From the NCBI GenBank assembly GCA_001464065.1, contig LNDN01000009.1, positions 1 through 64,000 of the forward strand: a DNA stretch of 64,000 nucleotides. Direction: 5' to 3'. This stretch comes from Acidobacteria bacterium Ga0077522. GTDB lineage: Bacteria; Acidobacteriota; Vicinamibacteria; Vicinamibacterales; Vicinamibacteraceae. The notes below the pieces were generated by a model. That model made no database searches. It was not told where the DNA came from and saw only the letters and a program-made list of their open reading frames with translations. Each line of letters begins with the position of its first letter. The stretch's first letter is position 1. A program made the translations under genes and the position numbers. Positions 1,117 to 48,845 of this stretch are shown one piece after another.

Positions 1117-1179
1117 GGTCGTTCTCCTCGATCCCTCGAGCCGCGGCCCCCCGCGGCTTTCCCTACTGCAAACGCATGA

Positions 1180-1230: not shown

Positions 1231-1242
1231 ACGAAGAGACGT

Positions 1243-1662: not shown

Positions 1663-2045
1663 CTCGCATCGATGTCTTCGACCCACCGTTGTGTTGTTCG
1701 TCCGGTGTGTGTGGCCCTTCGGTGGACCCGCAGCTGGCGGCCTTCGCCGCCGACGTCCAGTGGCTGACGACACAGGGCGTCGAGGTGGTACGTCACAACC
1801 TCGCCCAGGTGCCCCAGGACTTCGTGACCAACGAGACGGTCCGCACCCTGCTGGCCGACCACGGGGACGGCTGTCTGCCCGTCGTGCTGGTCAATGGCGA
1901 GGTACGCCATCAGGGCGCGTATCCGAGGCGGGACGAGTTGGCCCGTGAGAGTGGGCTGGTGGTCGGCGTGTCGCCCACCAAGCCCCGCATCCGAGTCTCC
2001 GTGACGGGGACCGGTGGGTGCGCCCCAGGGTCAGGGTGCTGCTGA
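1659..2045 (+). CDS. arsD: Arsenite metallochaperone ArsD
   Basis: A 128-residue thioredoxin-fold chaperone that hands As(III) to the ArsA ATPase. The family metal site Cys12-Cys13-Cys18 is conserved at exactly these numbers (PPLCCSSGVCG). The C-terminus ends in GGCAPGSGCC, giving a second cysteine group as in longer ArsD proteins. The gene overlaps arsR by four bases at its start, and its stop overlaps the arsA start (TGATG), so arsR-arsD-arsA form one coupled operon. Confidence 0.95.
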   Translation: MTRIDVFDPPLCCSSGVCGPSVDPQLAAFAADVQWLTTQGVEVVRHNLAQVPQDFVTNETVRTLLADHGDGCLPVVLVNGEVRHQGAYPRRDELARESGLVVGVSPTKPRIRVSVTGTGGCAPGSGCC

Positions 2046-3832
2046 TGGACACGATCGCCGCCCTCGCCGCCAACGCCACGCGCGTGCTGTTCTTCACCGG
2101 CAAGGGCGGCGTCGGCAAGACGTCGCTCGCCTGCGCGACCGCCATCGCGCTGGCCGATCAGGGGCGACGTGTGCTGCTGGTCTCGACCGATCCGGCCTCC
2201 AACCTCGACGAGGTCCTGGGCGTGCGGCTCGGGTCGCAGCCGACGCCGGTCCCTGGGGTGTCGGGCCTCGACGCGCTCAACATCGATCCGGAAGCCGCCG
2301 CGCGCGCCTACCGTGAGCGCGTCGTCGGGCCGTACAGGGCGCTGTTGCCGGCCAGTGCCGTTGCCAGCATCGAGGAGCAGCTGTCTGGCGCGTGCACGGT
2401 GGAGATCGCCGCCTTCGACGAGTTCACGTCGATCCTCGCCGGCGCCCGCGACGGCAGCCCGCACGACCACGTGGTCTTCGACACGGCGCCCACGGGCCAC
2501 ACGTTGCGTCTGCTGGCCCTGCCCGCGGCCTGGACGGGCTTCATCGACACCAACACTTCGGGCACCTCCTGTCTCGGGCCGCTGGCCGGCCTGCAAGGCA
2601 AGGTGCAGACCTACCGCGAGAGCCTCGATGCCCTGCGCGATGGCGCGGTCACGACGGTGGTGCTGGTGACGCGGCCCGAGCGGGGACCACTCGCGGAGGC
2701 GGGCCGGACGAGTGAGGAACTGACGGCGCTCGGCATCACGCACCAACGCCTCATCGTCAATGGCCTCTTCCACGCGAGCGGTGTCGACGACCCGCTGGCG
2801 ACCGCGCTCGCCGAGCGTGGACGCCTGGCCCTCGACACGCTGCCCGCCGCGTTGCAGGTGCAGCCGCGCCTCGACGTCCCGCTGCGCGCGTGGGCGCCGA
2901 TGGGTGTCGACCGCCTGCGCTCCCTCGGCCAGGTCGGCGACGACCAGGTCCTGCCGCGCCACGATGCGGTCCCGGCGCCAGGCGCACCGCTCTCCGCCCT
3001 GATTGACGAGTGCGCGGCGACAGGGCGTGGCGTGATCCTCACCATGGGCAAGGGCGGCGTCGGCAAGACCACGATCGCCGCGGCCATCGCCGTCGATCTC
3101 GCCTCCCGCGGCCACGACGTGCTGCTGAGCACGACCGACCCCGCAGCCCATCTCGGGGCCACGCTCGAAGGCAGCGTGCCGCGATTGCGTGTGACCCGGA
3201 TCGATCCCGTCGAGGAGACGCGCGCCTACACGGCGGAGGTGATGGCCAGCGCGTCACCCGATCTCGACGACGCGGGCCGCGCGCTGCTCGAGGAAGACCT
3301 GCGATCGCCGTGTACGGAGGAGATCGCGGTGTTCCGGGCGTTTGCCCGCACGGTCGACGAGGGCGCCGCGGGCTTCGTGGTGCTCGACACCGCGCCGACC
3401 GGGCACACGCTGCTGCTGCTCGATGCCGCGCAGGCCTACCACCGGGAAGTGTCGCGCACCGGGGGGGCCGTGCCGGACGCCGTGCGTGCCCTGCTGCCGC
3501 GTCTGCGCGACGCGACGTACACGAAGGTGGTGCTGGTGACGCTGCCCGAAGCCACACCGGTCCACGAAGCGGCGCATCTGCAGGCCGACCTCGTGCGGGC
3601 GGGCATCACGCCCTGGGCGTGGGTGGTGAACCAGAGCGTGGCCGCTGCGGCGGGCGTGACCGACCCGCTGCTGCGTGATCGGGCCGCCCGCGAGCAACCC
3701 TTCATCGACGAGGTCCTGGCCCGTCATGCGACGCGCGTCGCGCAAGTCCCCGTGCTGCCGGACGCGCCGATCGGCCGCGAGAAGCTGCTGGCGCTGGCGC
3801 AAGGGGCGCGGGCGCCCATGCCGGTCGGCTGA
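2045..3832 (+). CDS. arsA: Arsenite-stimulated ATPase ArsA (two-domain)
   Basis: A 595-residue duplicated P-loop ATPase that normally energises the arsenite pump. Both halves carry GKGGVGKT (residues 19-26 and 335-342) and the ArsA signature DTAPTGHTL. The three As(III) ligands known from the E. coli enzyme (C113, C172, C422) have counterparts at C117, C176 and C423. The ATG overlapping the arsD stop is used in preference to an in-frame GTG at 2018 that would extend it by nine residues. No ArsB or Acr3 pump follows: the next gene is an unrelated protein on the opposite strand. Confidence 0.95.
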   Translation: MDTIAALAANATRVLFFTGKGGVGKTSLACATAIALADQGRRVLLVSTDPASNLDEVLGVRLGSQPTPVPGVSGLDALNIDPEAAARAYRERVVGPYRALLPASAVASIEEQLSGACTVEIAAFDEFTSILAGARDGSPHDHVVFDTAPTGHTLRLLALPAAWTGFIDTNTSGTSCLGPLAGLQGKVQTYRESLDALRDGAVTTVVLVTRPERGPLAEAGRTSEELTALGITHQRLIVNGLFHASGVDDPLATALAERGRLALDTLPAALQVQPRLDVPLRAWAPMGVDRLRSLGQVGDDQVLPRHDAVPAPGAPLSALIDECAATGRGVILTMGKGGVGKTTIAAAIAVDLASRGHDVLLSTTDPAAHLGATLEGSVPRLRVTRIDPVEETRAYTAEVMASASPDLDDAGRALLEEDLRSPCTEEIAVFRAFARTVDEGAAGFVVLDTAPTGHTLLLLDAAQAYHREVSRTGGAVPDAVRALLPRLRDATYTKVVLVTLPEATPVHEAAHLQADLVRAGITPWAWVVNQSVAAAAGVTDPLLRDRAAREQPFIDEVLARHATRVAQVPVLPDAPIGREKLLALAQGARAPMPVG

Positions 3833-3841
3833 CCGGCGGAC

Positions 3842-5023
3842 CTACGGCATCTCGATGTCGAGGTCGTGGTCCTGCACGCGCGCGGGGTCGGGGGGCACTT
3901 CGTTCACCCGGACGACGTCCTCCAGGCGCTCCGGGGGCGGCAGGTTGTCGGCAAAGGCCAGCCCGAACAGTTCCCACGACGTCTGGAACAGCGCGGCGAT
4001 GATCGGCCCGATGATGAAGCCGATGGCGCCGAAGACGAAGATGCCGCCCAGTGTCGAGAACAGGATCATCAGGTCGTGCATCTCGGTGTCGCGCCCGACC
4101 AGGCGCGGGCGCAGCACGTTGTCGATCGATCCCACCACGAGGCCGCAGAACAGCGCCAGGCCGACCGCCTTGACCCAGTAGCCCATCAGGCCGAGGACGA
4201 TGCACGCGGGCACCCACACGATGGCGCCACCGAGCATCGGGATCACCGACAGGACGACCATGATGGCGCCCCAGAACACGGCGTGGTCCACGCCCGCGAC
4301 CCAGAACCCGATGCCTGCCAGCGTGCCCTGGGCCACGCCGATGACCAGCGTGCCCTTCAGGGTCGCCCGGGTCACGGACACGAACTTGTCGAGCAGCAGG
4401 TCGCGCTCGCCTTCCCGCAACGGCAGGAAACGGCGCAGCGCGTGCAGGATCTCCGGCCCGTCCAGCAGGAAGAAGAACACCGTGTACGCGAGGATGAACA
4501 GGTTGAAGACGGCCTGTACCGTGCCCACGGTGGTGTTGGACAGCGACGAGACGATGACGCCGCCGAGGCCACTGACCCACTCGCCCGCCTTCTGGAGCAA
4601 CTGCTCGCGATAGGGCTCGAGGTAGTTGGCAAACGGCAGGCGCTCGAGCAGGGGCGCCAGCGAGGTCGGCTGCGCCGACACCCGCGCGACCCAGGGACGC
4701 GCGCTCTCGCTCAGGCGGATGGCCTCGACGGTGACCATGTACGCCACGGCGGCCAGCGGCGCCGCCAGCGCCACGAACCCGACGAGCAGCGTGGCCAGCG
4801 CCGCCAGCGGCCCCCGCCCGCGGAACGCGTCGACGAGGCGCACGAACAGCGGATACCCGAGGCCCGCGAAGATCGCCGCGAGCAGGATCGTCATCAGGAA
4901 GCTGCGAATCAGCCCCAGGAACAGGACCGAGATCGCCAGCACGAAGACCAGCAGGAAGACGCGGCGGAAGCGGTTCTCGCGGAACGGGAGCGGCTGCCCC
5001 AGGCTGTCGGACACGATCGGCAC
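3842..5023 (-). CDS. AI-2E family (PerM-like) membrane protein
   Basis: A 393-residue polytopic membrane protein of the AI-2E/PerM family, proposed exporters or permeases; members include Na+/H+ antiporters and the TqsA autoinducer-2 exporter. It has paired hydrophobic segments near the N-terminus, a soluble central region of about 80 residues, and C-terminal helices with the glycine-rich pattern GGIFVFGAIGFIIGP. The start is a GTG, because the nearby ATG is out of frame. It converges on arsA with a 9-base gap and probably has no part in arsenic export, although the absence of a recognised pump nearby leaves that open. The substrate cannot be told from sequence. Confidence 0.85.
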   Translation of the reverse strand: MPIVSDSLGQPLPFRENRFRRVFLLVFVLAISVLFLGLIRSFLMTILLAAIFAGLGYPLFVRLVDAFRGRGPLAALATLLVGFVALAAPLAAVAYMVTVEAIRLSESARPWVARVSAQPTSLAPLLERLPFANYLEPYREQLLQKAGEWVSGLGGVIVSSLSNTTVGTVQAVFNLFILAYTVFFFLLDGPEILHALRRFLPLREGERDLLLDKFVSVTRATLKGTLVIGVAQGTLAGIGFWVAGVDHAVFWGAIMVVLSVIPMLGGAIVWVPACIVLGLMGYWVKAVGLALFCGLVVGSIDNVLRPRLVGRDTEMHDLMILFSTLGGIFVFGAIGFIIGPIIAALFQTSWELFGLAFADNLPPPERLEDVVRVNEVPPDPARVQDHDLDIEMP

Positions 5024-5069
5024 GGTCCGACCATGCTACCAGTGGGTCGTCGCGATCGATACCGGCCCG

Positions 5070-6176
5070 TCAGCGCAGATCGCGCATCGCGGGCCACCCG
5101 TCGAGTCCGGTGGCCTGCTCCACCCCGCGACGGATCGCCTGGGCCGCCGCCTCGGCCGCAGCGGCGCCGAGCGCGGTCAGCGAGACGGACGGCGTGATGC
5201 GCGCGGTCGACAGCGTGATGACCTGATCGCCGTCGCCGTTGGTGTGGTACGGGTTGATGGCGCGGGCCGGGCCGGTGTTGGCCATCATCGCCAGCTTGGT
5301 CAGGCTGGTCTTGTCGAGCGCGACGTTGGTCGCGATCACGGTCAGCGTGGTGGCGCGAAACGGCTGGTCGTCGAGGCGCCGATCGGCGCGTGGGCGTGTG
5401 GTGTCGAGATCACGCTGCAGCTGAGCCGCACTGTCGATGAAGGTGCGGCCATCCGCCCCGCGCGCGCCCGCCACGATGCGTCCAGTCTTCGCGTCCAGGA
5501 TGTCACCCGCGGCATTGACGACGCAGAGCGCCGCCACCACCACGTCGCCCGATCGGATGGCCACGGTGCCGACGCCGCCCTTCATCCCGCCGAACCCGCG
5601 CGATCGGAACATCTTCCCCACCGTCGCGCCGGCGCCGACCCCGACGCTCCCTTCGGCCACGGGGCGCGTGCTGGCGGTCTCGCAGGCGCGGATGGCCAGC
5701 GCGGCGTCTGGCCGGATGCGGCCGTCGCCGAGCCCGAGATCGTCGATCACGGCACCGACCACGATGGGGATGCGCACGTTCGGGATGCCCCAGTCGTAGC
5801 CGACGTTGTTGGCCTCCAGATGCCGGACCACGCCCGCCACGGCCTCGAGGCCCATGGGCCCGCCGCCGGTGAGCAGGAGGCCATGGATGTGCTGGAGCGG
5901 GCTCACGGGCTGCAGCATCACCCCGAGCATCTCGCCCGGGGCCGACCCGTCGTAGTCCACGCCCGCGGTCACCGGGCCGTCGAACAGGATGGCGGTACAG
6001 CCCGTGGGCCGACGCGGATCGACGGCGTGGCCGACGCGGATGCCCGGGACGTCGGTCAGGGACCCGGCCGAGGGCGTGACGGCGGCGCGGCTGGCCGCGG
6101 CGGCCGACCACGGCGCGAGCGCCGCACCGGCGAGGATCGACGAGCACTGCCTGGCGAAGTGACGACGACTGGCCAT
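5070..6176 (-). CDS. Secreted P1 (S58, DmpA-like) aminopeptidase
   Basis: A 368-residue member of the S58/P1 family (L-aminopeptidase/D-esterase, beta-peptidyl aminopeptidase). These Ntn-hydrolase-like enzymes are made as a precursor and cut themselves to expose a Ser or Thr nucleophile. The family opening LTDVPGIRVGHA and the segment GGMKGGVGTVAI are clear, and ATTLTVIATNVAL resembles the self-cleavage region with a threonine nucleophile. The N-terminus begins MASRRHFARQ, a near-consensus twin-arginine motif, followed by an alanine-rich hydrophobic stretch, so Tat export is likely. A TATAGT sits 8 bases before the ATG. Substrate unknown. Confidence 0.85.
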   Translation of the reverse strand: MASRRHFARQCSSILAGAALAPWSAAAASRAAVTPSAGSLTDVPGIRVGHAVDPRRPTGCTAILFDGPVTAGVDYDGSAPGEMLGVMLQPVSPLQHIHGLLLTGGGPMGLEAVAGVVRHLEANNVGYDWGIPNVRIPIVVGAVIDDLGLGDGRIRPDAALAIRACETASTRPVAEGSVGVGAGATVGKMFRSRGFGGMKGGVGTVAIRSGDVVVAALCVVNAAGDILDAKTGRIVAGARGADGRTFIDSAAQLQRDLDTTRPRADRRLDDQPFRATTLTVIATNVALDKTSLTKLAMMANTGPARAINPYHTNGDGDQVITLSTARITPSVSLTALGAAAAEAAAQAIRRGVEQATGLDGWPAMRDLR

Positions 6177-6184
6177 GGCGATGC

Positions 6185-6190
6185 ACTATA
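6185..6190 (-). promoter_or_regulatory. Candidate -10 of a leaderless transcript (P1 peptidase)
   Basis: On the minus strand TATAGT ends 8 bases before the ATG at 6176. No Shine-Dalgarno sequence lies in between, so transcription may begin at or next to the start codon. Confidence 0.5.
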
Positions 6191-6257
6191 CGCCGGCCCG
6201 TCCCGTAATCCAGATTTAACGCATGCGTCACGACGGGGAAACCACGGGTGCGTAACG

Positions 6258-6275
6258 TGACAGTGACCGCTGTCA
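6258..6275. promoter_or_regulatory. Inverted repeat TGACAG-6-CTGTCA upstream of the PhoB-like gene
   Basis: A perfect 6-base inverted repeat with a 6-base spacer lies about 45 bases before the regulator start. CTGTCA is the half-site of classical Pho boxes, but there the half-sites are direct repeats every 11 bases, so this could instead be the site of another dimeric regulator or of autoregulation. Confidence 0.35.
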
Positions 6276-6318
6276 TCACCGGCAGGGTCTCGGTCCACGA
6301 CTCCACAGGGAGCACTGC

Positions 6319-7071
6319 GTGACGCTGGCTCAACCGCACGGCACCACCCACTCGTCCTGGCCCGCCCAGGCCGCCTCCATCACACGCATCCTCGTCGTCG
6401 AGGACGAGCACGACATCGCCGGGCTCATCAAGCACACGCTCGAACGGGAGCCGGACACGCAGGTCGAAACCGTCGGCAGCGGCGACGCGGCCCTCAAGGC
6501 GGTGGTGGCCCAGGCCCCGCACCTGATCATCCTCGACCTCAACCTGCCCGTGCTGTCCGGCTTCGAGGTGTGTCGCATCCTCCGTGCCCGACCCGCGACC
6601 AAGCACGTGCCGATCATCATGCTGACGGCGCGGGCGACGGAGATCGATCGGGTCTCGGGCCTGGACCTCGGCGCCGACGACTACGTGACCAAGCCGTTCA
6701 GCCTGCGGGAACTGGCCGCGCGCGTGCGCGCCGTGCTGCGCCGGCCGCACATGATGCCGGAGGACGAGGCGCCGAGCCGCGTCTATCGGGGCAAGGTGCT
6801 GACGGCCGACTTCGAGGCGGTGGCCATCGAGGTGGAGGGGCAGCCGGTGCGACTGACCCGCCGCGAGTTCGAGTTGCTGCAGTGCCTGGTGGAGAACCGG
6901 AATCGCGTACTGTCACGTGACCGGTTGCTCGAGCGCGTGTGGGGCTACGACCGGCAGATCGAAACGCGGTCGGTGGACGTGCACGTCGGTCGCCTGCGCG
7001 CCAAGCTCGGGAGCGCCGGCGAACAGATCGAGACCGTGGTCGGACTCGGGTACAAGTTCGTGGAAGCCTGA
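6319..7071 (+). CDS. OmpR/PhoB-family response regulator
   Basis: A 250-residue two-domain regulator. The receiver domain (about residues 24-140) has the acidic pair in VVEDEHD, the phospho-acceptor aspartate in LIILDLNLPV, and the conserved lysine in DDYVTKPF. The C-terminal winged helix (about 155-248) has the PhoB-type LTRREFELLQ and VDVHVGRLRAKLG segments. The start is GTG with an AGGGAG ribosome site. It faces the peptidase gene and is followed by the phosphate permease on the other strand, so I infer PhoB-like control of phosphate genes. No histidine kinase is adjacent, so its partner is unknown; hence no gene symbol. Confidence 0.85.
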   Translation: MTLAQPHGTTHSSWPAQAASITRILVVEDEHDIAGLIKHTLEREPDTQVETVGSGDAALKAVVAQAPHLIILDLNLPVLSGFEVCRILRARPATKHVPIIMLTARATEIDRVSGLDLGADDYVTKPFSLRELAARVRAVLRRPHMMPEDEAPSRVYRGKVLTADFEAVAIEVEGQPVRLTRREFELLQCLVENRNRVLSRDRLLERVWGYDRQIETRSVDVHVGRLRAKLGSAGEQIETVVGLGYKFVEA

Positions 7072-7076
7072 GGGAG

Positions 7077-7180
7077 GCTCAGGGCTCAAGGCTCAGGGCT
7101 CAACACTCACGGCTTTGGGCTCGGGGCTCAGGGGCCGTTCGAAGGGCGAAGGCCGAAGGACGAAGGCCAAAGGGTAAAGA
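7077..7180. repeat. Low-complexity intergenic tract (GGCTCAGGGCTCAA and AAGGGCGAAGG-type units)
   Basis: Immature tandem units of the form AAGGCTCAGGGCTC repeat at 7080-7135 and grade into purine-rich units (GAAGGGCGAAGGCCGAAGG) to about 7180. Related purine tracts occur between other genes in this window. No reading frame here looks coding. Confidence 0.7.
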
Positions 7181-7186
7181 CGGACG

Positions 7187-7210
7187 CGCCGGCGCTACTT
7201 GGCGCCGGCG
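7187..7210 (-). terminator. Strong hairpin at the 3' end of the Pit gene
   Basis: CGCCGGCGC and GCGCCGGCG form a perfect 9-base stem with a 6-base loop spanning the pit stop codon. On the minus strand a short pyrimidine stretch with few Ts follows, so it may be a weak terminator or an mRNA-stabilising hairpin. Confidence 0.45.
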
Positions 7211-8196
7211 AGCGACAGCAGGAAGTACGTGCTGGCGCCGACGAAGGCCGCCGCGGGAATCGTCAGTACCCAGGCCCACACGATGCGCCCGGCCACGCCC
7301 CAGCGCACGGCCGACAGCCGGCGCGTGGCGCCGACGCCGACGATCGAGCCCGTGATGGTGTGCGTGGTGCTGATGCCCACGCCCATCAGGGTGGCGACGA
7401 GAATGGCCACCGCCGCACCGGTCTCGGCGGCGAACCCCCCGACCGGCGCCAGCTTGGTGATCTTGGTGCCCATCGTGCGCACGATGCGCCAGCCACCCGA
7501 CAGGGTGCCGAGCCCGATCGCCGCATGCGCCGTCAGCACGACCCAGAACGGCACGTCGAAGGTCGTGATGTAGCCAGCCGTGAACAGCACGCCGGTGATG
7601 ATGCCCATCGTCTTCTGCGCATCGTTGGCGCCGTGCATCAGGCTGAACAGCGCCGCCGACAGCAGCTGCAGGCGCCTGAACAGCATGTCGACGCGTGCCG
7701 GCGCGGTCTTGCGGAACAGCCAGAACGTCGCCGTCATCATCGCGAGCCCGACGCCGAGGCCGATCAGCGGCGCGACGACGATGAACACGAGCGTCTTGGT
7801 CCATCCGGACCAGAGGATGGCCGGCAGGCCGGCCTTGGCCACCGCCGCACCGCCGTACCCACCGAACAGCGCGTGGGACGAACTGGTCGGCAGGCCGTAG
7901 TACCAGGTGATCAGATTCCACACGATGGCGCCGGTGAGCCCGGCGCCGATCACCGCGAACGTGACGATGTTGAGGTCCACCATGCCGGCGCCGACGGTCT
8001 TGGCCACCGCGGTGCCGAAGGCGAACGCCGCCACGAAGTTGAAGAACGCGGCCCAGACGACGGCCTGCCCGGGCGTCAGCACGCGGGTGGAGACCACGGT
8101 GGCGATGGAGTTCGCCGCATCGTGGAACCCGTTGATGTAATCGAACGCCAGGGCGAGCAGGATCAGGACGATGACGACCAGCAGCGATGCATCCAT
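7195..8196 (-). CDS. Inorganic phosphate transporter, PiT family
   Basis: A 333-residue membrane permease with the PiT signature GFHDAANSIATVV near the N-terminus and its inverted duplicate GANDAQKTMGII in the second half. PiT carriers import phosphate, often as a metal-phosphate complex, driven by the proton or sodium gradient. It lies 15 bases after a PhoU-like DUF47 gene on the same strand, the standard bacterial Pit pairing, so the two are one operon. Together with the Pst system about 8 kb away it gives a low-affinity plus high-affinity pair. Confidence 0.95.
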   Translation of the reverse strand: MDASLLVVIVLILLALAFDYINGFHDAANSIATVVSTRVLTPGQAVVWAAFFNFVAAFAFGTAVAKTVGAGMVDLNIVTFAVIGAGLTGAIVWNLITWYYGLPTSSSHALFGGYGGAAVAKAGLPAILWSGWTKTLVFIVVAPLIGLGVGLAMMTATFWLFRKTAPARVDMLFRRLQLLSAALFSLMHGANDAQKTMGIITGVLFTAGYITTFDVPFWVVLTAHAAIGLGTLSGGWRIVRTMGTKITKLAPVGGFAAETGAAVAILVATLMGVGISTTHTITGSIVGVGATRRLSAVRWGVAGRIVWAWVLTIPAAAFVGASTYFLLSLAGAK

Positions 8197-35427: not shown

Positions 35428-36465
<1,038 letters not shown>

Positions 36466-36500
36466 TCGATCTCCGTATCTCGGCCTGCGCGTGTCTCGAT

Positions 36501-36607
36501 GGGTAGGGCCGCTCTCCGAGCGGGCCGTCTCCACCCGACTGGGGTCGCTGACGGCCGGCTCCGCCTTCGCCCGCTTCGGCGGACGAGTCGGAGAGCCGGC
36601 TTTACCC
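36501..36607. repeat. REPIN-like element (copy A, interrupted right hairpin)
   Basis: The left end is GGGTAGGG followed by the hairpin CCGCTC-TCC-GAGCGG; the right end carries GCCGGCTC...GAGCCGGC and then TTTACCC. Compared with copy B at 45369 the right hairpin holds about 28 extra bases in its loop. The GTAG at the foot of the hairpin is the hallmark of REP sequences mobilised by TnpA-REP (RAYT) transposases. It lies inside the operon, between DUF4159 and MoxR. Confidence 0.8.
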
Positions 36608-36615
36608 GAAGTCGG

Positions 36616-37425
36616 TCAGTGGGTCAGCGTGTAGATGACCTCGTTGATCATCATGCGGTACGCCTGCGCCGTGTGTTGTATGTACCCCGGATACTGTTCG
36701 GCGTTGGACCACTCCCACCCGTCGCCCATGTCCGTGTTCCAGTTCATCAGCACCATGGCGCGGCCGTTGTCGTCCTCGATGGCCTTGAGCTCCGCCGTGA
36801 TGCCGCCCTTCTCCCACGTGCGGCCGGCGAAGAACGACCCCAGCCCGGGCACCTGCGGATAGCCGTCGATCTGGTAGAAGCACGAAAAAATCGGATGCGT
36901 CGGCGGCAGCGAGATGATCGACCGCTCGGGGAACACCCGCTTCATCTCCGTGGCGACGTTCTCCAGCTCGAGATCGCCGTGGAAGTCGTCCATGACCGCC
37001 GTGCCGCCGCGCAGCAGGAACTCGCGCAGAATCGGCACCTCGGCGTCCTTCAGGCGGAGCGTGCCGGGCTCGACGAAGTAGACCCACGGGTGATTGAAGA
37101 GCTCAGGGTCCTCGATCCGCACCACGGTCGGCTCGCCCACGTCGATGGCCGTCACCGACCGCAGCCGGCGCGACAGGTTCTGCTCCGCGGCCGGGCCATC
37201 GATGGCCCAGGAGTCGCTCCAGTACCGGGCGCGGAAGGAGGCGGCATTGTGCGCGTCGTAGCGGATCCGCGTGAACTGCCAACGCAGTCCGGCAAAGCGC
37301 GGATCCGTGTCCTCTGCGAGTTGCGCCCACAACAGCGGCAGGCCCGCCGTGGCCAGCAAGCCGAGGGCCACCAGGCCGGCCACCATCACCACGCGCCACC
37401 GCGCTCGCTGTGTCTGCTCGCTCAT
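36616..37425 (-). CDS. DUF4159 family protein
   Basis: A 269-residue protein with one N-terminal membrane helix or signal anchor (VVMVAGLVALGLLATAGLPLLWAQ) and a GATase1-like alpha/beta domain (REFLLRGGTAVMDDFHGD, HPIFSCFYQIDG). DUF4159 proteins regularly accompany MoxR/DUF58/VWA gene sets, possibly binding a sugar or amide; the function is unproven. The ATG overlaps the stop of the upstream TPR gene (ATGA). Confidence 0.9.
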   Translation of the reverse strand: MSEQTQRARWRVVMVAGLVALGLLATAGLPLLWAQLAEDTDPRFAGLRWQFTRIRYDAHNAASFRARYWSDSWAIDGPAAEQNLSRRLRSVTAIDVGEPTVVRIEDPELFNHPWVYFVEPGTLRLKDAEVPILREFLLRGGTAVMDDFHGDLELENVATEMKRVFPERSIISLPPTHPIFSCFYQIDGYPQVPGLGSFFAGRTWEKGGITAELKAIEDDNGRAMVLMNWNTDMGDGWEWSNAEQYPGYIQHTAQAYRMMINEVIYTLTH

Positions 37426-40064
37426 CGCGGCTGTCCCTCGGGCGTGCGGCCGTCGATGATCGCCAGCAGGAGGTCCTGCGCGCGCTCGTGCCGCGGCGTC
37501 GTCTCGAGCGCCTTGATCAAGTGCCGCTTCGCCTGGTCGCGCTGCCCGGTCTTCATCGTGGCCTCGGCCAGCGAGGTGAGCGCCTCGGCGGGATTGGGCG
37601 GCCCCGCATCGACGGCCGCCTGCAACTCGCGCAGCGCGACGGGGATGTCCTGTCGGGCCAGCGCCAGGTCGCCGAGCGCGGTGTGGGCCGCGGCATCGAA
37701 CGGATCGATCTCGATGAGACGCTCGGCCGCCCGCTGCCGCACCGCCGCATCGTCGGCACCGCGCGCCTGGGCGACGAGCTGCCGCAGCGGCTGCGCCGCG
37801 GTGTGGTCGTTCTCGAGGACCTTCTCCATGAACCGGCGCGCGTCGTCTGGTCGCTCCTGCCGCAGGGCGACGGTGACCAGCAGCCGCCAGGGGCTCGCCT
37901 CGCCGGTCGCGAAGGGCACGAGCGCTGCCGCCCGTTCGAGCACCGCGCGCGCGGCGTCGAGTTCGCCGAGCCGGATCAGCGGCGTGGCCGACACCATCTG
38001 GATGCGGAAGTTGCCGGCGTGCGCGTCGGCGTGGGCGCGCCACTCGGCAGCGGTCGCCGTCCGCCCCGGCGGGGCCACGTCCACCTCGGTCAACGCGGGA
38101 ATGGTCGCGTCGTACGTCTGCTTGACGTGGGCGTCGAACGCCGGCTGCAGGGTGGCCCACGTCAGGCCGTACGCGCGCGTCAGCGCCGACTCGTCGTCCA
38201 GGCCTTCACCGAAGCTGCGGATGAAGGCGCGGAGCTTCTCCTCGCCGTGCGTCTCCACGAGGTAGGCCACCAGCACGGCGGCCTGCTGATAGGCGAGGTT
38301 GATGGTCTCGACCTTGGCGAAGCCGCTGTTGAGGTCGGCCAGCGGCAGCAGACGGCCCGCGGCATGCGCCTGCGCGAACAGCAACTCCGACTCGCGGCCC
38401 CAGCCCGCGCGCGCCCGCGTCTCCTCGAACGTCGAGATGCCCTCGCTGAGCCACCGCGGCAGACGGTTGCCCGACATCTGCAGCGTGATCACATGCGCCA
38501 GTTCGTGCCACAACACCGCGGCCCAGTTGAACGTCCCTGGCGGTCTCGCCTTTGGCGAGTCCATCGTGACGACGCGCCCGAAGCAGGCGCCGAGGGCGCC
38601 CATCATGCCCGGCAGCCCCATGGTGCGCACGGCGAAGTCGTCGTGCCGGGGAAACACCTCGACGAGGATCGGCCCCTGCGGCGTGAACTGGTAGCGCGCC
38701 GAGAGCGCAGCCAGGGCCTCCTCTGCCAGCGGCACGAGGTACGGCTGCAGCACCGCCACCTCCTGCTCGTGCATCCGGATCGTCAGGTTCTTCGCCTCGA
38801 CGGTCACGAACTTGTCGAGCGTGTCCATCAGGCTGAGCAGGTTGTAGGTGACCGTGTCGAAGGAATCCTTCGAGAAGGCCGCATCGAGGGCCTTGCGCGC
38901 CTCGGTCTCGTCACCGGTCCGCAGCAGGTGCAGGCCGAGCGACGCCTGGGCACGGCTGTTCTCCGGATCGAGCGTCACGGCCTCGCGCAGGAATCGCACG
39001 GCCTCGTCGAACCGGTACATGCGGGCGACACGCTCGCCGATGACGCGCGGGACGTCGGCGTTGCGCGGGTTGATCGCCAGGGCCTGCTGCGTGAACCGCG
39101 TCACGTCGGCCGTCCGATCCTCGATCTGGGCCAGCGCTGCCGACAGCGCCAGCGCCTCGACATGGCGCGGGTTGACGGTCAGCAGCTTCTCGAGGGCCGC
39201 GCGGGCATCCGGGCGTCGGCTGGCATCCATGGCCTCGGAGGCCAGCAGCACCCACGCATCCGGCTGATCCGGATCGATCGCCAGGGCCTGCCGCGCCGCC
39301 GCCTCGGCCGCCGTCGCGTTGGTATCGGCCAGGGACCGCGCCAGGCCGATCATGGCCGGCACGTACTGCGCGTCGGCCTTCAACGCCGTCTCGTACGACG
39401 ACCGGGCCTCGGCCTGGTTGTACTTCTCGAGGAACAGGTCGCCCCAGCGGGTGTGCACCTCCGGATCGTCGGGCGAGAGATTGGCGGCGGTCTGGAAGTA
39501 CGAGTTCGACAGCCGCACCTGTCCGAGCGCCTGCGCCGCACGGGCGGCACGGCTCATCGCGCCGCCGGTCCGCTGCGCCTGTCCCGCGCGCACGATGGCC
39601 TGCCACAGCACGGACGCCTCGTCGGCGCGCCCCAGTCGCGTCAGCAACTCGGCGAGCGCCACGGCGGGCTCCCCCGTCGGCTGGTCGGCGAGCGCCTGCC
39701 GGTACGCTCGCTCGGCGTCGTCGTAGCGCCCCACGCGTTCGGAGGCGCGACCTTCGATGTACGCCCGAGCCCACGGCGCGTCCGCGGCCCGCGCGAGCGC
39801 CTCGTCGAACTTGCCGGCGACGAGGGGGGCCTGCCAGGGGGGCGTGACCTCGGGAGGAGGCTCCGGCGGCGCAGCCTGGACCATCGTCCCGACCGGCGGA
39901 ATGATGCGCGGCACCGTGAAGGTGGGGGTCTGGGCCAGCAGCGCCGGCCCGGACAGGCACACCCCTGCAAGGAGGACTCCGATACGGCCCAGGGGCCGTA
40001 TCGCGTGGCGGGCTGAGGATGCGCCCGTGGCGCGCCACCGCGACATCTTCGCCTGTGCTCGCAT
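37422..40064 (-). CDS. Secreted TPR protein with peptidase MA-like metalloprotease domain
   Basis: An 880-residue protein with a signal peptide (through ALLAQ), TPR repeats from about residue 80 to 420, a gluzincin domain, then more TPRs (about 680-870). The zinc site is H520-E-L-A-H524, with the third ligand E541 in WLSEGISTFEE, the pattern of peptidase MA-like proteins. It is first in the nine-gene leftward operon and is coupled to DUF4159. The ATG at 40064 overlaps a perfect TATAAT, so a start at 40046, giving a cleaner signal peptide, is a real alternative. The target peptide is unknown. Confidence 0.88.
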   Translation of the reverse strand: MRAQAKMSRWRATGASSARHAIRPLGRIGVLLAGVCLSGPALLAQTPTFTVPRIIPPVGTMVQAAPPEPPPEVTPPWQAPLVAGKFDEALARAADAPWARAYIEGRASERVGRYDDAERAYRQALADQPTGEPAVALAELLTRLGRADEASVLWQAIVRAGQAQRTGGAMSRAARAAQALGQVRLSNSYFQTAANLSPDDPEVHTRWGDLFLEKYNQAEARSSYETALKADAQYVPAMIGLARSLADTNATAAEAAARQALAIDPDQPDAWVLLASEAMDASRRPDARAALEKLLTVNPRHVEALALSAALAQIEDRTADVTRFTQQALAINPRNADVPRVIGERVARMYRFDEAVRFLREAVTLDPENSRAQASLGLHLLRTGDETEARKALDAAFSKDSFDTVTYNLLSLMDTLDKFVTVEAKNLTIRMHEQEVAVLQPYLVPLAEEALAALSARYQFTPQGPILVEVFPRHDDFAVRTMGLPGMMGALGACFGRVVTMDSPKARPPGTFNWAAVLWHELAHVITLQMSGNRLPRWLSEGISTFEETRARAGWGRESELLFAQAHAAGRLLPLADLNSGFAKVETINLAYQQAAVLVAYLVETHGEEKLRAFIRSFGEGLDDESALTRAYGLTWATLQPAFDAHVKQTYDATIPALTEVDVAPPGRTATAAEWRAHADAHAGNFRIQMVSATPLIRLGELDAARAVLERAAALVPFATGEASPWRLLVTVALRQERPDDARRFMEKVLENDHTAAQPLRQLVAQARGADDAAVRQRAAERLIEIDPFDAAAHTALGDLALARQDIPVALRELQAAVDAGPPNPAEALTSLAEATMKTGQRDQAKRHLIKALETTPRHERAQDLLLAIIDGRTPEGQPR

Positions 40065-40172
40065 TATATGCACACGTCCTGACCCGATCCTGGGACCGGC
40101 GATGGGGCCATGCGCGCGGAAGGCATGGTCAGTTGGACGTGGCTGGCGGGCGTTCGGATGGCGCCATGACGT

Positions 40173-41642
40173 TCAGAACACCTGGCGCCATGTGAAGTGC
40201 ATGACGGCCAGGGCGACCTGGAGTCCGAATGCCGCGACCAGCACCTGCGGCAGCGCCGTGGCGCGGACCCGCCAGCCGAGGTAGATGAACACCGGAAACA
40301 GGGTCGAGGTGACCCGCCCCATCGACAGGAACCCGCCCATGAACAAGGGCGGCAGCACCGTGACGAGCAGGAAGGCACTCCACGCCCAGCCCATGCGCCG
40401 ACCGACGGGCCAGCACACCCCGAGCACGAGGAAGGTGGCCGCCATGTTCAGGATCTCGATGGCGTTGACGACGGTGTAGCCGTACAGCCCGAGGCCCTGC
40501 AGCTCCCGCCAGCGCTGGTGCGCCAGGACGTGCACCCCGCTGAACTGGCGGCCCCAGGCCCCGTGGGCCTTCATCCAGAGGAACCACTCGCCCGTCTGCA
40601 GGTGCAGCCACGCGGTGAAGGCCAGCATGCCGAGGCCCGCGCACGCCGCCGTGGGCAGCGCCGCAGCCAGGGTCTGCCAGCGATAGTCGTCGCGGCGCCA
40701 CGCGTCGAGCGCCAGGATACCGAGCGGCACACTCAACAGACACCCGTTGGGGCGCGTCAGTCCGGCGATCAGTCCGGCCACGGCGGCCCAGGCCCACTGC
40801 CGGCGCTGGAAGTGGTACGCCGCGGCTGTCGCACAGAGCAGGAACAGCCCTTCGGTGTAGACGGCGCCGTAGAAGAACGCGAACGGATACGTGGCCGCCA
40901 GGGCCACCGCGGCCGTCGCCGCCTCCTCCGAGTCCGTCAGATCGCGAGCCAGGCGGAACAGATAGACCAGCGCCCATGTGAAGGCGACCACCGACACCAG
41001 CCATCCGGACTGCAGCAGGCGGACATGCCGGCGCTCGGTGAACGCCTGGAACGAGTCGGCCGGATCGTCGGGTGACCCCCACCGCGCCCCGAGCAACGCC
41101 GCCGTGGTCCGAACGGCGAACGGATACGCCGGGAAGAACGCCACGTTGGTCTGCGTGTTCTGGTTCCCCCAGTAGTTGTAGCCGCTCTCGGCAATGGTGA
41201 CGTACCACCCCGCGTCCCACCGTCCCAGCAGGTTGTGGAACTCGTTGGCCGACGTGCGGAATGGCGGACCGCCCTCCGGATAGCCGATGACGATGACGCC
41301 GACGTAGGAGGCGTACAGGACCACCAGCCGCGCAGTCAGGACCCAGGGCAGGGCCCGCCGCAGTCCGCGGTCGGTGACGATGGCGCGGATCCGGGCGGCC
41401 GCCACCTCCCACCACGACTGGCGGCGCCAGGCGAACGTCCGGGCCGCGAGCAACGCGCCGGCCACGAGGCCGAGACGCCAGGGCGACTCGGCCGTCACGC
41501 GCACATCGTCGAAGCGCACGCGCAGCCCGCCGGTGACGACCGCCGCGATCAGCAGGACGAGGCTGATCGTGATGGCGACGTCGAGGACGCGGACCCAGGC
41601 CGGTCGAGCCACCGGTGGCAACGGGAGCAGCGAATCCGTCAT
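40173..41642 (-). CDS. PIG-V-like polyprenyl-phosphate mannosyltransferase family protein
   Basis: A 489-residue integral membrane protein with about ten hydrophobic segments. The motif RWDAGWYVTIAESGYNY after the first loop, and VAFFPAYPFAVR, are typical of the PIG-V/GT-C mannosyltransferases that use a lipid-linked sugar donor outside the membrane. It is last in a four-gene coupled operon (ATGA overlap with the ICMT-like gene). The acceptor may be a lipid made by the upstream ketosynthase and reductase; that is inference. Donor sugar not determinable. Confidence 0.8.
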   Translation of the reverse strand: MTDSLLPLPPVARPAWVRVLDVAITISLVLLIAAVVTGGLRVRFDDVRVTAESPWRLGLVAGALLAARTFAWRRQSWWEVAAARIRAIVTDRGLRRALPWVLTARLVVLYASYVGVIVIGYPEGGPPFRTSANEFHNLLGRWDAGWYVTIAESGYNYWGNQNTQTNVAFFPAYPFAVRTTAALLGARWGSPDDPADSFQAFTERRHVRLLQSGWLVSVVAFTWALVYLFRLARDLTDSEEAATAAVALAATYPFAFFYGAVYTEGLFLLCATAAAYHFQRRQWAWAAVAGLIAGLTRPNGCLLSVPLGILALDAWRRDDYRWQTLAAALPTAACAGLGMLAFTAWLHLQTGEWFLWMKAHGAWGRQFSGVHVLAHQRWRELQGLGLYGYTVVNAIEILNMAATFLVLGVCWPVGRRMGWAWSAFLLVTVLPPLFMGGFLSMGRVTSTLFPVFIYLGWRVRATALPQVLVAAFGLQVALAVMHFTWRQVF

Positions 41643-42166
41643 GCGCGAGGCGCGAGGCCGAGCGCACGTTCTTCGATACGAATGCGCCAGAGGAGGATCA
41701 GGCCGAACATCACGCCGAAAAGGGTACCGGTGTTCGGGGCCCGCATCCACAGGGCGATGCCGATCACCTCGCCAGCGACGCCGACGTAGTTGGGATGGCG
41801 GATGAGTCGGTAGATCCCCCGCGTGACCAGCGGCGCGCCCGGCAGCACGAGCACGCGAAAGCTCCAGCGCACGCCGAGGGTGAGGATGGCGGCGTACTTG
41901 ATGGCCTTGCCGAGCAGGAAGATGGCCACCCCGAGCGCCCCGACCGTGTCCCACGGTGCCCCCCGCCACCAGCCTTCGAGACACACGCCGAGGAAGCCTG
42001 CCGGATAGGCGACCTGCATCCAGGGGTAGCTGGCATCGGGCACGACGCGCGCGCCCTGGTCGAGGAGGCGGCGCTCGTTGGCCGCCGACCGCAGCGCCTC
42101 GAGCCCCATGGTCCCGAACACGACGAGCAACGCGAGCAGGGGTTGCAGCGATCCCGGCTCGGTCAT
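41639..42166 (-). CDS. Isoprenylcysteine carboxyl methyltransferase-like membrane protein
   Basis: A 175-residue polytopic methyltransferase of the ICMT/PEMT fold. The SAM-binding C-terminal signature GIYRLIRHPNYVGVAGEV and IRIEERAL is complete. Bacterial homologues methylate small lipids or unknown acceptors rather than prenylated proteins. It overlaps both neighbours by four bases, which ties it to the same pathway as the flavoprotein and mannosyltransferase. A second, distinct ICMT-like gene lies on the other side of the ketosynthase. Confidence 0.85.
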   Translation of the reverse strand: MTEPGSLQPLLALLVVFGTMGLEALRSAANERRLLDQGARVVPDASYPWMQVAYPAGFLGVCLEGWWRGAPWDTVGALGVAIFLLGKAIKYAAILTLGVRWSFRVLVLPGAPLVTRGIYRLIRHPNYVGVAGEVIGIALWMRAPNTGTLFGVMFGLILLWRIRIEERALGLAPRA

Positions 42167-43317
42167 GCGGCCGACGCTCCGGGCGTCGAGTGCGTGACGT
42201 CGCCCGCGGTGGCAATCAGGTGCCGCAGAAGCGAGGGCGCCACCGCCGCCCCGACGGCGCCGAGTCGGACGCCCATCGGCCAGCTGACGAGGGAGCGCAG
42301 GGCGCGGTTGAAGCGCAGCTTGGCCCCGAAGGCCGCCCGGCGATCGAGGCGCAGTCGCGTGAGGAGGTCAGCGTCCTCGCGGAGCGACGTGTCGAGCAGC
42401 GCGGCTGCCGCCAGGCCGCCACCACGCAAGGCGATGTGCAAGCCGTCGCCCGTCATGGGATCGACGAAGCCCGCGGCGTCGCCAGCCAGCAGGAGCCCGG
42501 GAACGCCGACCGCGTGGGCGTCCACGGCCAGCGGACCGAGCGTGATCACCGGCGCCACCTGTCGGGCGCGTGCGACGCGTCCGCGAAGCAGCGGGTCGTC
42601 ACGCAGGGCGCGCCAGAGCCGCGCCGCAGGGTCGCCCATCTGGTCGCGGCTCGCCGTCACGAGGCACACGTTGGCGAGGCCTGCCTCGCCGGGCGCGACG
42701 CCGATGTAGTGCCCGGCGCGCACGTGCATCTCGCCGAACCGCCCGAGCCCCTCCACCCCTTCCGCGTAGGTGCCGATCGCCCAGCGGCGCGGCCGGGCCG
42801 GATGGGCGATGAGGCCGAGCGCGAGCGCCAGCGTCGATCGACGCCCGTCGGCGGCAATCGTCCAGCGCGCCGAGACCACCTCGGTCGCCCCGGACGCCTG
42901 GCGCACGCGGACGCCCGTCACGCGGCCGTCCCGATCGACGGCAGGTGCCTGGGCGCGCACGCCGGTGCGGACGTCCACGCCGGCCTGCGCGGCGGCCTCC
43001 ACCAGGTGCAGATCGAGATGGTGCCGGCTCCAGGCACGCCCCACCAGGCCGTCGCCGTAGGTGCCGCGAATCGAAACGCCGGACGTCCCGGTGACGAGCA
43101 TGCCGTCGAGCGCCAGGCCGTGGCGCTCGACCGGCCCGGCGAGACCCACAGTGCGCAGCAGCGCGACCCCGCCCGGATTCAGCGTGTCGCCGCACAGCTT
43201 GGGGCGAGGGAAGGCATCACGATCGAGCAGCACGACCCGGGCCCCGCCGCGCGCCAGCATGGTCGCGGCAAACGCCCCCGCCGGCCCGCCACCGACGACG
43301 ACCACGTCGGTGGTCAA
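42163..43317 (-). CDS. FAD-dependent oxidoreductase, geranylgeranyl-reductase-like
   Basis: A 384-residue flavoprotein. The N-terminal FAD site is DVVVVGGGPAGAFAATMLARG, with the substrate/FAD loop PRPKLCGDTLNPG and the second FAD motif LLLAGDAAGFVDPMTGDGL. This combination marks the geranylgeranyl reductase/halogenase-like group that acts on polyprenyl chains or aromatic substrates. The start is a TTG overlapping the ketosynthase stop (TTGA); no other start precedes the FAD motif, so translation is coupled. Reductase versus hydroxylase activity cannot be decided. Confidence 0.85.
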   Translation of the reverse strand: MTTDVVVVGGGPAGAFAATMLARGGARVVLLDRDAFPRPKLCGDTLNPGGVALLRTVGLAGPVERHGLALDGMLVTGTSGVSIRGTYGDGLVGRAWSRHHLDLHLVEAAAQAGVDVRTGVRAQAPAVDRDGRVTGVRVRQASGATEVVSARWTIAADGRRSTLALALGLIAHPARPRRWAIGTYAEGVEGLGRFGEMHVRAGHYIGVAPGEAGLANVCLVTASRDQMGDPAARLWRALRDDPLLRGRVARARQVAPVITLGPLAVDAHAVGVPGLLLAGDAAGFVDPMTGDGLHIALRGGGLAAAALLDTSLREDADLLTRLRLDRRAAFGAKLRFNRALRSLVSWPMGVRLGAVGAAVAPSLLRHLIATAGDVTHSTPGASAA

Positions 43318-44606
43318 TGGGCCCGTCCCAGCACGACCGCGCTGTTCTTCGAGCCGAACCCGAGGCAGTTGCACAGTGCCGCCTCCACCTCCACCGCGCG
43401 TCCCGTATTGGGGAGCACGTCCATGTCACACGCCGGGTCGAGCTGCGTCACGTTGATCGTCGGGGCCAGGAAGGCCCGGTCCAGCCCCAACGCCGTCGTC
43501 ACGATGCCGCAGGCACCACTGGCCCCCTGGGGATGCCCGACCATCGACTTGGTCGACGAGCCACACATCCGATCGGCCTGCGCCCCGAAGACGGCGCGCA
43601 CGCTGCGAATCTCGATGGCGTCGTTGAGCTGCGTGGACGTCCCGTGGAAGTTGACGTAGCCGATCTCCTCGGGTGCGCGCCCGGCACGGTCGAGGGCCAT
43701 GCGCATGGCGCGGATGATCTGCTGACCCTCGGGGTCCATCTGCACACGATGATAGGCGTCGCAGGTCGAGCCGTAGCCGTCGATGGTCGCGTACACATGC
43801 GCGCCGCGAGCGCGGGCGCGATCCTCCCGCTCGAGCACGTACATCCAGGCGCCCTCCCCCAGGACGAACCCGTCCCGCGTCGAGTCGAACGGACGCGACG
43901 CCGTGGCAGGAGTGTCGTTGAACGCGGTGGAGACGACGCGCATGCGCGAGAAGCCGTAGATCATGCCCGGCGTCACGCACGCGTCGACGCCGCCGCACAG
44001 CAGCACGTCGGCCTCGCCGCTGCGCAGCAGGCCGAGCGCGTACCCGGTGGCATCGGTGGAACTCGTGCAGCCGGTGGACAACACGTGGCTGATGCCGTGC
44101 AACTGCAGGGCGATCGAGATCTCGCTCGACAGCATGCCGCAGATGGAGATGGGGATGGCGTAGGGCGTGACCCGCTTCAGGCCATCGGTGAAGAACTCGC
44201 GGTACTGCTTCTCGCCGAGTTCGATGCCCCCACCACCGGTGCCGATGATCACGCCCGCGCCGGGCTCGCCGCGGCGCAGGCCGGCGTCGTGCCACGCCTC
44301 GCGCGCCGCGATGACCCCGGCCAGCGACGCGCGCGAATACCGCTTCGCGTCCGCGCGTTCACGCAGGATGTCGTCCCCGTCCTGGCTGTCGAGCGAGGGG
44401 TGGGCGTCGAGCCGCGGCGCCTGGGCGATCGACAACGGGGGCAGCGGTGCGGCGACCTGACACGCATACGGCGCCGGATCGAAGTCGTCGATCCGCCGTG
44501 TGGCGCTGCGGCCCTGTCGCACATGCTCCCAGAAGCATTCGCGTCCGACGCCGTACGGCGACGCCACGCCGATGCCCGAGATGGCAATGCGGGAAGAAGA
44601 CCGCAT
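43314..44606 (-). CDS. Beta-ketoacyl-ACP synthase (KAS II type)
   Basis: A 430-residue decarboxylating condensing enzyme with the catalytic triad C180 (STGCTSSTDA), H321 (NFHGTSTQLND) and H358 (MVGHPQGASGA). It is FabF-like in length, but several insertions near residues 50-90 and the absence of any acyl carrier protein or fatty acid gene beside it suggest a specialised role. It leads a four-gene operon with start-stop overlaps throughout. TATAGT ends 7 bases before the ATG, implying a leaderless message. Product unknown; could be a polyketide or special lipid chain. Confidence 0.9.
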   Translation of the reverse strand: MRSSSRIAISGIGVASPYGVGRECFWEHVRQGRSATRRIDDFDPAPYACQVAAPLPPLSIAQAPRLDAHPSLDSQDGDDILRERADAKRYSRASLAGVIAAREAWHDAGLRRGEPGAGVIIGTGGGGIELGEKQYREFFTDGLKRVTPYAIPISICGMLSSEISIALQLHGISHVLSTGCTSSTDATGYALGLLRSGEADVLLCGGVDACVTPGMIYGFSRMRVVSTAFNDTPATASRPFDSTRDGFVLGEGAWMYVLEREDRARARGAHVYATIDGYGSTCDAYHRVQMDPEGQQIIRAMRMALDRAGRAPEEIGYVNFHGTSTQLNDAIEIRSVRAVFGAQADRMCGSSTKSMVGHPQGASGACGIVTTALGLDRAFLAPTINVTQLDPACDMDVLPNTGRAVEVEAALCNCLGFGSKNSAVVLGRAH

Positions 44607-44613
44607 GGGCGGC

Positions 44614-44623
44614 ACTATACTAT
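44614..44623. promoter_or_regulatory. Overlapping divergent -10 elements between KAS and the ICMT-like gene
   Basis: ACTATACTAT serves both strands. On the minus strand TATAGT (44619-44614) ends 7 bases before the KAS ATG. On the plus strand TATACT and TACTAT lie at 44616-44623. The gap between the two ATGs is only 15 bases, so both transcripts must start at or inside the coding regions. The plus gene may thus use TTG 44631 or GTG 44643. Confidence 0.45.
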
Positions 44624-45368
44624 GCGCCCGTTGACCCGACTCGTGGCTCCGCTTCATGGCACTTCGACGCTCGTGCGCGCCCTGCAGGTCGTGGGTGCGG
44701 TGCTGTTCGTGGTCTCGCTGGCCACCGGTGGCAAGGCGTACTTCCAGGCCTTCGACGCGACCGCGCCGGCCGGCTCGCCCCTCTGGGCCCCGCTGGCCAT
44801 CGACGTCGCCCTCTTCTCCGCCTTCGCCCTGCATCACAGCGTGCTGGCTCGGACGCGCCTGAAGCAGTGGATCCATCAGCGCGTCGGCATCGACGCCGAG
44901 CGGGCGCTCTACGTCATCCTCGCCAGCACGCTGTTCCTGGCGTGCACACAGCTCTGGCAGCCGCTGCCGGGCACGTGGTACGCCCTGACCGGCGTGTGGT
45001 GGTGGGTGGGGGCGGCGGTGCAGGCCGCAGGCGTGCTCGTCACCCTGCTCGCGGCGCGCACGCTCAGCTTGCGCGAACTGATGGGGCTGGATCCCTCGAG
45101 GCAGGCGGCGCCGCAGCACGAGCCTCCCACGCTCGAGACGCGGGGGCTGTACACGGTGGTGCGACACCCGATCTACTTCGGGTGGGTGCTCTTCGTCGCC
45201 GGCGCGCCCCTGATGACGCACACCCGCCTGCTCTTCGCCGCGGTCAGCGTGGCCTACCTCGTGATCGCGATTCCTCTCGAGGAGCGCAGTCTGATGGCCA
45301 ATTTCGGCGACCCCTACCTGGCGTATCGGCGACGCGTGCGCTGGCGGATGGTTCCCGGGATCTATTGA
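44622..45368 (+). CDS. ICMT/NnrU-like membrane methyltransferase family protein
   Basis: A 248-residue polytopic protein with a C-terminal ICMT-type SAM signature (GLYTVVRHPIYFGWVL, EERSLMANFGDPYLAYR) and an N-terminal FALHHSVLART segment resembling NnrU. Five or six hydrophobic segments are apparent. It diverges from the ketosynthase operon across 15 bases, so a link with that pathway is plausible. The start is uncertain (ATG 44622, TTG 44631 or GTG 44643). Its stop lies immediately before a REPIN. Confidence 0.8.
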   Translation: MRPLTRLVAPLHGTSTLVRALQVVGAVLFVVSLATGGKAYFQAFDATAPAGSPLWAPLAIDVALFSAFALHHSVLARTRLKQWIHQRVGIDAERALYVILASTLFLACTQLWQPLPGTWYALTGVWWWVGAAVQAAGVLVTLLAARTLSLRELMGLDPSRQAAPQHEPPTLETRGLYTVVRHPIYFGWVLFVAGAPLMTHTRLLFAAVSVAYLVIAIPLEERSLMANFGDPYLAYRRRVRWRMVPGIY

Positions 45369-45967: not shown

Positions 45968-46163
45968 GCGCGGTGCCCGCGTGCCCCGGCTGATAGACTG
46001 CCATTCGGGACGGCAGGGATCGAATCGCGCCCGGCGCGGTCCCGTCGTCGCGCGCCCCGGGTGAATGCCCGGGCACCGTCGGACAGACGCACCCGCCCGT
46101 GCGTCAAACGATTCGGGCACCTGGCACTCGGGCCAACGCCCCGCACTCTGGAGAAGACGATTC

Positions 46164-48845
<2,682 letters not shown>

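Follow-up and report, generated by a model that had tools for sequence, protein, structure and literature searches.

What, if anything, do the overlapping genes at positions 40173-44606 of an acidobacterial contig make together? The stretch analysed here, called the window, comprises 64,000 nucleotides (positions 1 to 64,000 of contig LNDN01000009.1) of Acidobacteria bacterium Ga0077522 from the order Vicinamibacterales. The source assembly is 5.4 Mb, and its genus-mates include two larger genomes, one of 7.48 Mb in a single contig and one of 6.47 Mb. An original prediction, made from the letters of this DNA, had read the locus as an operon of a ketosynthase (KAS), a flavoprotein, a membrane methyltransferase and a mannosyltransferase-like protein. 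Our analysis defines a core cassette that consists of the KAS, the flavoprotein and one methyltransferase of the isoprenylcysteine carboxyl methyltransferase (ICMT) family, together with a divergent second one. The FabF-type KAS probably takes the place of a type III polyketide synthase (T3PKS) in a compact lipid-polyketide cassette of the srs/hid (alkylresorcinol) type. This T3PKS parallel, which lends the cluster a concrete meaning, was missing from the original prediction.

The cassette and its conservation in the order

The core genes in the window are as follows.

44606-43314, minus strand: cassette ketosynthase (KAS), FabF-like, the putative chain former (430 aa; PF00109/PF02801)
43317-42163, minus strand: flavin adenine dinucleotide (FAD) flavoprotein, an oxidoreductase of the geranylgeranyl reductase (GGR)/halogenase superfamily (384 aa, TTG start; PF01494)
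42166-41639, minus strand: ICMT1, a small membrane methyltransferase of the ICMT family with a short C-terminus (175 aa; PF04140, E 1.9e-20; alignment of 20 orthologues)
44622-45368, plus strand: ICMT2, a divergent ICMT/PEMT-like membrane methyltransferase (PF04191/PF04140; MddA-like, below cut-off)

The three minus-strand genes, and a glycosyltransferase gene that follows ICMT1 in the same direction, are joined by four-base overlaps: TTGA at the KAS/FAD junction (43314-43317), ATGA at the FAD/ICMT1 junction (42163-42166) and ATGA at the ICMT1/glycosyltransferase junction (41639-41642). This arrangement was borne out as originally described, and the families were confirmed by Pfam. The start codons of KAS and ICMT2 lie 15 bp apart (44607-44621). 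No carrier protein gene lies near the cassette; all of the carrier-protein matches in the genome are on other contigs (C34, which holds the fab operon, C19, C24 and C227), in agreement with the prediction that the cassette has no dedicated acyl carrier protein (ACP).

The prediction was open to the objection that this gene order might be conserved in no relative. We compared 20 neighbourhoods, each of 14-20 kb, from relatives within the order, and KAS, FAD and ICMT1 were found in the same order and direction in all 20. ICMT2, which had been noticed as a second ICMT-like gene diverging beside KAS, proved to be part of the set, as it adjoins KAS divergently in 18 of the 20. The start-to-start gap between KAS and ICMT2 is 15-132 bp among the 19 loci measured, including one on a short contig of a metagenome-assembled genome (MAG; L036), and therefore the two promoters overlap or are very short. 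An unusually compact two-way promoter and leaderless transcripts are alternative explanations for this intergenic region. The KAS is the most conserved protein (60-87% identity to the window protein), as compared to 46-74% for FAD, 40-75% for ICMT1 and 40-78% for ICMT2. The KAS/FAD overlap is not kept: in the two closest relatives the genes are separated by 157 bp and 28 bp. Within the genus, the FAD-ICMT1-glycosyltransferase overlaps persist. When the contig collection was scanned with the KAS, two close relatives were recovered: L035, a contig already among the twenty, and L036, which contains ICMT2, KAS and FAD.

The flanks of the cassette are also syntenic. On one side lie MetH, a methyltransferase, a glycosyltransferase and Lon, and on the other a TPR/peptidase MA protein, a DUF4159-like protein, MoxR and DUF58 (flank family names were assigned partly by inspection). 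Two of these genes serve as boundary markers.

37422-40073, minus strand: TPR/peptidase MA protein, downstream of the cassette (named from the Pfam match of the G059 homologue)
46065-48845, plus strand: Lon protease (cluster c5, in 14/20 fetched loci and in the window)

The TPR/peptidase MA gene (cluster c2) follows the cassette in the window and in each of the 20 fetched loci, and the Lon flank is also present in genomes G403, G374, G377 and G003. The Lon protease is outside the pathway, and the TPR/peptidase MA protein probably is as well. The block from TPR/peptidase MA to DUF58 (35428-40073 in the window) follows the cassette in most relatives in the order for no obvious functional reason. 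By gene content, conservation and orthology, the core cassette is KAS-FAD-ICMT1 with divergent ICMT2. The claim that the cassette genes act together is supported by a gene order that is kept across the order and partly across the phylum.

A ketosynthase apart from housekeeping FabF

The cassette KAS shares with FabF (KAS II) the fold and the Cys-His-His-Lys active site, formed by Cys180, His321, Lys353 and His358, which are invariant in 22/22 orthologues. Its AlphaFold model matches the FabF fold, with FabFs as the PDB matches, and also actinorhodin KS-alpha. On the other hand, the cassette KAS differs from FabF in its clade, its genomic setting and its signature residues. The housekeeping FabF is encoded separately, in the fab operon on contig C34, and is 37% identical to the cassette KAS. 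A tree built from 58 KASs places all cassette members in a single clade next to that of the housekeeping FabFs, both with 100% support in the SH-like approximate likelihood ratio test (SH-aLRT), calculated by a quick method. When twelve genomes were searched with a cassette profile, the cassette KASs scored 488-815 bits and every other KAS 370 bits or less. Most members carry the motifs TGCTSSTDA, GHPQGA[SC]G (GHPQGASG in the window) and GFGSKN instead of the FabF forms, and Gly or Ala occupies the gate position equivalent to Ile108 of FabF. The window KAS falls below the cut-off of the FabF equivalog model TIGR03150 (402.7 vs 493.75 bits), and passes the broader subfamily model PRK07314 (392.3 vs 387). 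A plasmid search with the KAS returned only ordinary FabF-like or type II PKS-like matches, at 40% identity or less.

PpyS and DarB belong to the KAS III family, in contrast to the cassette KAS, which belongs to the KAS I/II family. These KAS-III-type head-to-head pyrone/resorcinol synthases (PMC4578411) resemble the cassette enzyme in being thiolase-fold ketosynthases outside a PKS assembly line, and they make a ring lipid, as the cassette enzyme is proposed to do.

A second KAS cluster was observed on contig C24 (genome G000, positions 6-7309, L064). It has two KAS-like genes flanking a carrier-protein match and a short-chain dehydrogenase/reductase gene, and an open reading frame with a polysaccharide-deacetylase domain, and is ended by the end of the contig. 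It is possibly another lipid/polyketide cluster.

The same tailoring genes beside type III polyketide synthases

Our occurrence survey covers Acidobacteriota, where many of the relatives are draft assemblies. A search for T3PKS in the same genomes revealed the same set-up, in which the FAD and methyltransferase genes are homologous to those of the KAS version. The KAS-FAD-ICMT layout is found in the window and in L037-L056, and outside the order in L100, L101 and L104, while a KAS-methyltransferase-FAD layout occurs outside the order in L110, L113 and L134-L137. A T3PKS together with a methyltransferase and a FAD protein is present in eleven loci (L098, L099, L118, L120-L123, L125 and L127-L129), and T3PKS-ICMT loci were also found (L124, L133, L183 and L184). 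Further T3PKS loci have the FAD gene without a methyltransferase. T3PKS genes with neither a FAD gene nor a clear methyltransferase nearby were left out of the cassette count (L119, which is near a contig end, L126 and L130-L132).

Such clusters have known counterparts elsewhere. The srsABC genes for alkylresorcinol biosynthesis in Streptomyces griseus encode a T3PKS, an ICMT and a monooxygenase (PMC6669644). Compared by gene function rather than sequence, they resemble the cassette in combining a chain former, an ICMT-family methyltransferase and a monooxygenase, and differ in having a T3PKS in place of the FabF-type KAS; the window also adds a second ICMT. The hidABC genes (hierridins, picocyanobacteria) and planctomycete operons comprise a methyltransferase, an oxidoreductase and a T3PKS and lead to alkylresorcinols (PMC10896814; PMC8086630). 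They share with the cassette a methyltransferase, a chain former and, in the planctomycete example, a FAD protein of the same subfamily; in the cassette, however, the KAS takes the place of the T3PKS, and in this order an ICMT that of the soluble methyltransferase. That example is a plasmid with an annotated methyltransferase-FAD-type III PKS operon, whose FAD protein matches the window FAD. Set against the srs/hid type, the window thus has the same-subfamily FAD protein and the operon methyltransferase (ICMT1, overlapping FAD) and lacks the T3PKS, for which the source genome gave no match (PF02797). A literature search on the KAS, GGR and ICMT gene set, on FabF with alkylresorcinol and on Luteitalea polyketides found nothing relevant.

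The FAD protein links the two versions. Using a profile built solely from T3PKS-partnered FAD proteins, the window FAD scored 272 bits, KAS-partnered FADs 239-331 and the FAD of the planctomycete T3PKS operon 299, as compared to just 155-179 for the FADs of GGR, aryl-polyene-type and nonribosomal peptide synthetase (NRPS) systems. Judged by these profile scores, the window FAD and the FAD proteins that accompany type III PKSs belong to one subfamily. In the FAD tree, KAS-partnered and T3PKS-partnered proteins interleave, and on its well-supported branches the KAS label must have changed at least four times. A profile of ICMT1 also matches the ICMT next to T3PKS.

The closest PDB folds to the AlphaFold model of the window FAD are FasV, PltA, Mpy16 and CndH, with only 20-26% identity to the halogenases. 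Several flavin-dependent halogenases act on carrier-bound substrates. Given this nearest fold, hydroxylation, dehydrogenation and halogenation are all possible. Assignment as a geranylgeranyl reductase was rejected (141.2 bits, vs the GG-red-SF cut-off of 158.8), and the place of the GGR motif W-x-F-P reads YIGVAP in the window protein. We also rejected membership in an aryl-polyene system, suggested by an Azospirillum FAD relative beside an aryl-polyene-like ketosynthase/chain-length-factor set: the window locus is without ACP, dehydratase, ketoreductase and a second ketosynthase, and the Azospirillum FAD scores lower on the T3PKS-FAD profile. ICMT1 carries the ICMT motifs RHPNYVG (RHPxYxG) and EE. 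Protein methylation as an isoprenylcysteine carboxyl methyltransferase was rejected for it, at 32.3 bits vs the NF040696 cut-off of 160.

Exclusion and exchange of the two chain formers

The two chain formers hardly ever occur in the same genome. Among 149 genomes of the order, 68 have the cassette KAS and 37 a T3PKS, and one has both, against 16.9 expected (Fisher 8e-11, kinship ignored). In the phylum (297 genomes), the corresponding numbers are 63, 93 and one, against 19.7 expected. Four genera (g1, g20, g37 and g209) hold both types, in different species.

At the level of the locus, G003, a member of the window's genus, lacks KAS, FAD, ICMT1 and ICMT2 between Lon and the TPR gene, and has a T3PKS-FAD-methyltransferase cassette on another contig. 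In G403, the same locus beside Lon contains a T3PKS-type ICMT, a chalcone-synthase-family T3PKS, ICMT2 and a divergent FAD gene, and the KAS is gone. The FAD and ICMT2 of G403 are 59-60% identical to those of its congener G374, which has the KAS in the usual place. KAS and T3PKS have been exchanged repeatedly beside homologous FAD and methyltransferase genes, in one case at the same locus, and the functional interchange of the two is well supported. If so, two unlike chain formers, a type III PKS and a KAS that depends on an ACP, would replace one another beside a common set of tailoring enzymes, even between species of one genus. This makes the proposal directly testable, since congeners with either version should share the same or very similar lipids.

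Proposed pathway and alternative explanations

From the protein families and the T3PKS parallel, we infer the enzyme activities, the ring, the product and the use of a housekeeping ACP; any mannosylation would likewise be an inference. The KAS would accept a long fatty acyl chain carried by the housekeeping ACP. It would lengthen this chain with malonyl-ACP drawn from the general pool, and the full reduction that usually follows would not take place. The resulting beta-keto or poly-beta-keto chain would possibly be cyclised to a resorcinol- or pyrone-like head, which the FAD protein would oxidise by hydroxylation or dehydrogenation. ICMT1 and ICMT2 would then methylate the head in the membrane, yielding a membrane-resident methoxylated lipid. 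A bolder version, which we put forward tentatively, is that the cassette KAS founds a class of lipid-polyketide synthases not described before, in which an enzyme of the FabF family performs iterative, non-reducing extension of fatty acyl-ACP and ring closure, which may have evolved as a T3PKS stand-in and been repeatedly exchanged with it in Acidobacteriota. Were the stand-in proposal true, a soil phylum that is abundant but little characterised would make redox-active membrane lipids, alkylresorcinol-like or related to these, and its route to them was probably overlooked because a lone FabF-like gene resembles fatty-acid housekeeping.

Several points speak against the T3PKS stand-in. We know of no characterised FabF-type enzyme that makes resorcinols or pyrones, and the product chemistry of the KAS may differ. 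The superfamily of the FAD protein includes reductases, hydroxylases and halogenases, and the window member has no characterised close homologue. The exclusion statistics ignore shared ancestry, and two genomes have both chain formers: G335, in which no FAD or methyltransferase gene was found near the T3PKS, and G110, which has a T3PKS-ICMT pair. G403, the case of same-locus exchange, is a MAG of 82% completeness, and outside the order a listed FAD gene lies within 3.5 kb of just 24 of the 47 cassette-type KAS genes. Alternatively, the cassette may make a chemically different lipid that only shares its physiological role with the T3PKS product, in which case either one would suffice for a genome; examples are a furan/tetronate type lipid, a methyl ester or a beta-keto fatty acid that has been oxidised and methylated. 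A single C2 unit is what FabF enzymes normally add, and the cassette KASs are their sister clade; moreover, the KAS loci of the order have ICMT1/ICMT2 where most T3PKS loci have a soluble methyltransferase. We nevertheless consider a different lipid unlikely, though by no means far-fetched, given that both versions use homologous FAD proteins and methyltransferases, which have changed partners between them; this suggests that the two pathways pass through the same intermediate or a closely similar one.

Other explanations are less likely. Lineage sorting could produce the exclusion as a by-product with no functional meaning, as whole families have a single type (T3PKS in f8 and f11, KAS in f15) and the counts were made without a species tree; however, type switches inside g1, g20, g37 and g209 and the same-locus exchange in G403 make this improbable. 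It is barely credible that the KAS is just another FabF, for housekeeping or chain lengthening, whose unrelated neighbours lie together by chance. The FabF fold and the 37% identity fit such an enzyme, but a separate FabF is present in the fab operon, the profile scores split into two groups, the signature motifs are unlike those of FabF, and the gene order is kept across families and partly across classes; gene order and tree together have largely refuted it already. The earlier view that the glycosyltransferase is an integral step, so that the methylated lipid or polyketide would also be mannosylated, draws on the four-base overlap kept in the genus, on the gene's presence in 11/20 loci and on a one-frame fusion with ICMT1 in G038. 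It is quite unlikely to hold, since the gene is missing from 9/20 cassettes and G003 retains it without KAS, FAD and the ICMTs. The proposal that the KAS replaces a T3PKS is the reading that we retain.

The glycosyltransferase and variant loci

The remaining gene of the overlapping run is an optional neighbour.

41642-40173, minus strand: PIG-V-like (GT-C) glycosyltransferase, transcribed in the same direction as the cassette (489 aa; PF04188)

In G003, this glycosyltransferase is kept in the same place with 78% identity. The evidence on its role is mixed, and it would be at most an optional later step. The original prediction of a methylated, mannosylated lipid or polyketide stands in part: a methylated lipid or polyketide is likely, and the mannosyl part was not upheld by the distribution of the gene. 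A single open frame of 652 aa in G038 (L043:10290-12248) spans both ICMT1 and the PIG-V-like glycosyltransferase; it is either a natural fusion or an assembly error.

In two genomes of family f10, G059 and G015, a strongly diverged FAD gene stands alone between a glycosyltransferase gene and the TPR gene (L063:7289-8377 and L205:7133-8206). No KAS or ICMT was found at these two loci, and the lone FAD gene may have acquired a new role or be decaying. G279 has a T3PKS-methyltransferase-FAD cassette followed by a KAS-like gene from outside the cassette clade (234 bits; L128:7504-11932). In a variant in G084 (L102:4543-11381), a FAD protein, a B12-binding radical SAM protein, an ICMT and a YceI lipid-binding protein are encoded next to the cassette KAS; a lipid/isoprenoid-binding protein is also reported to be encoded beside the T3PKS of Saltatorellus ferox (PMC10896814).

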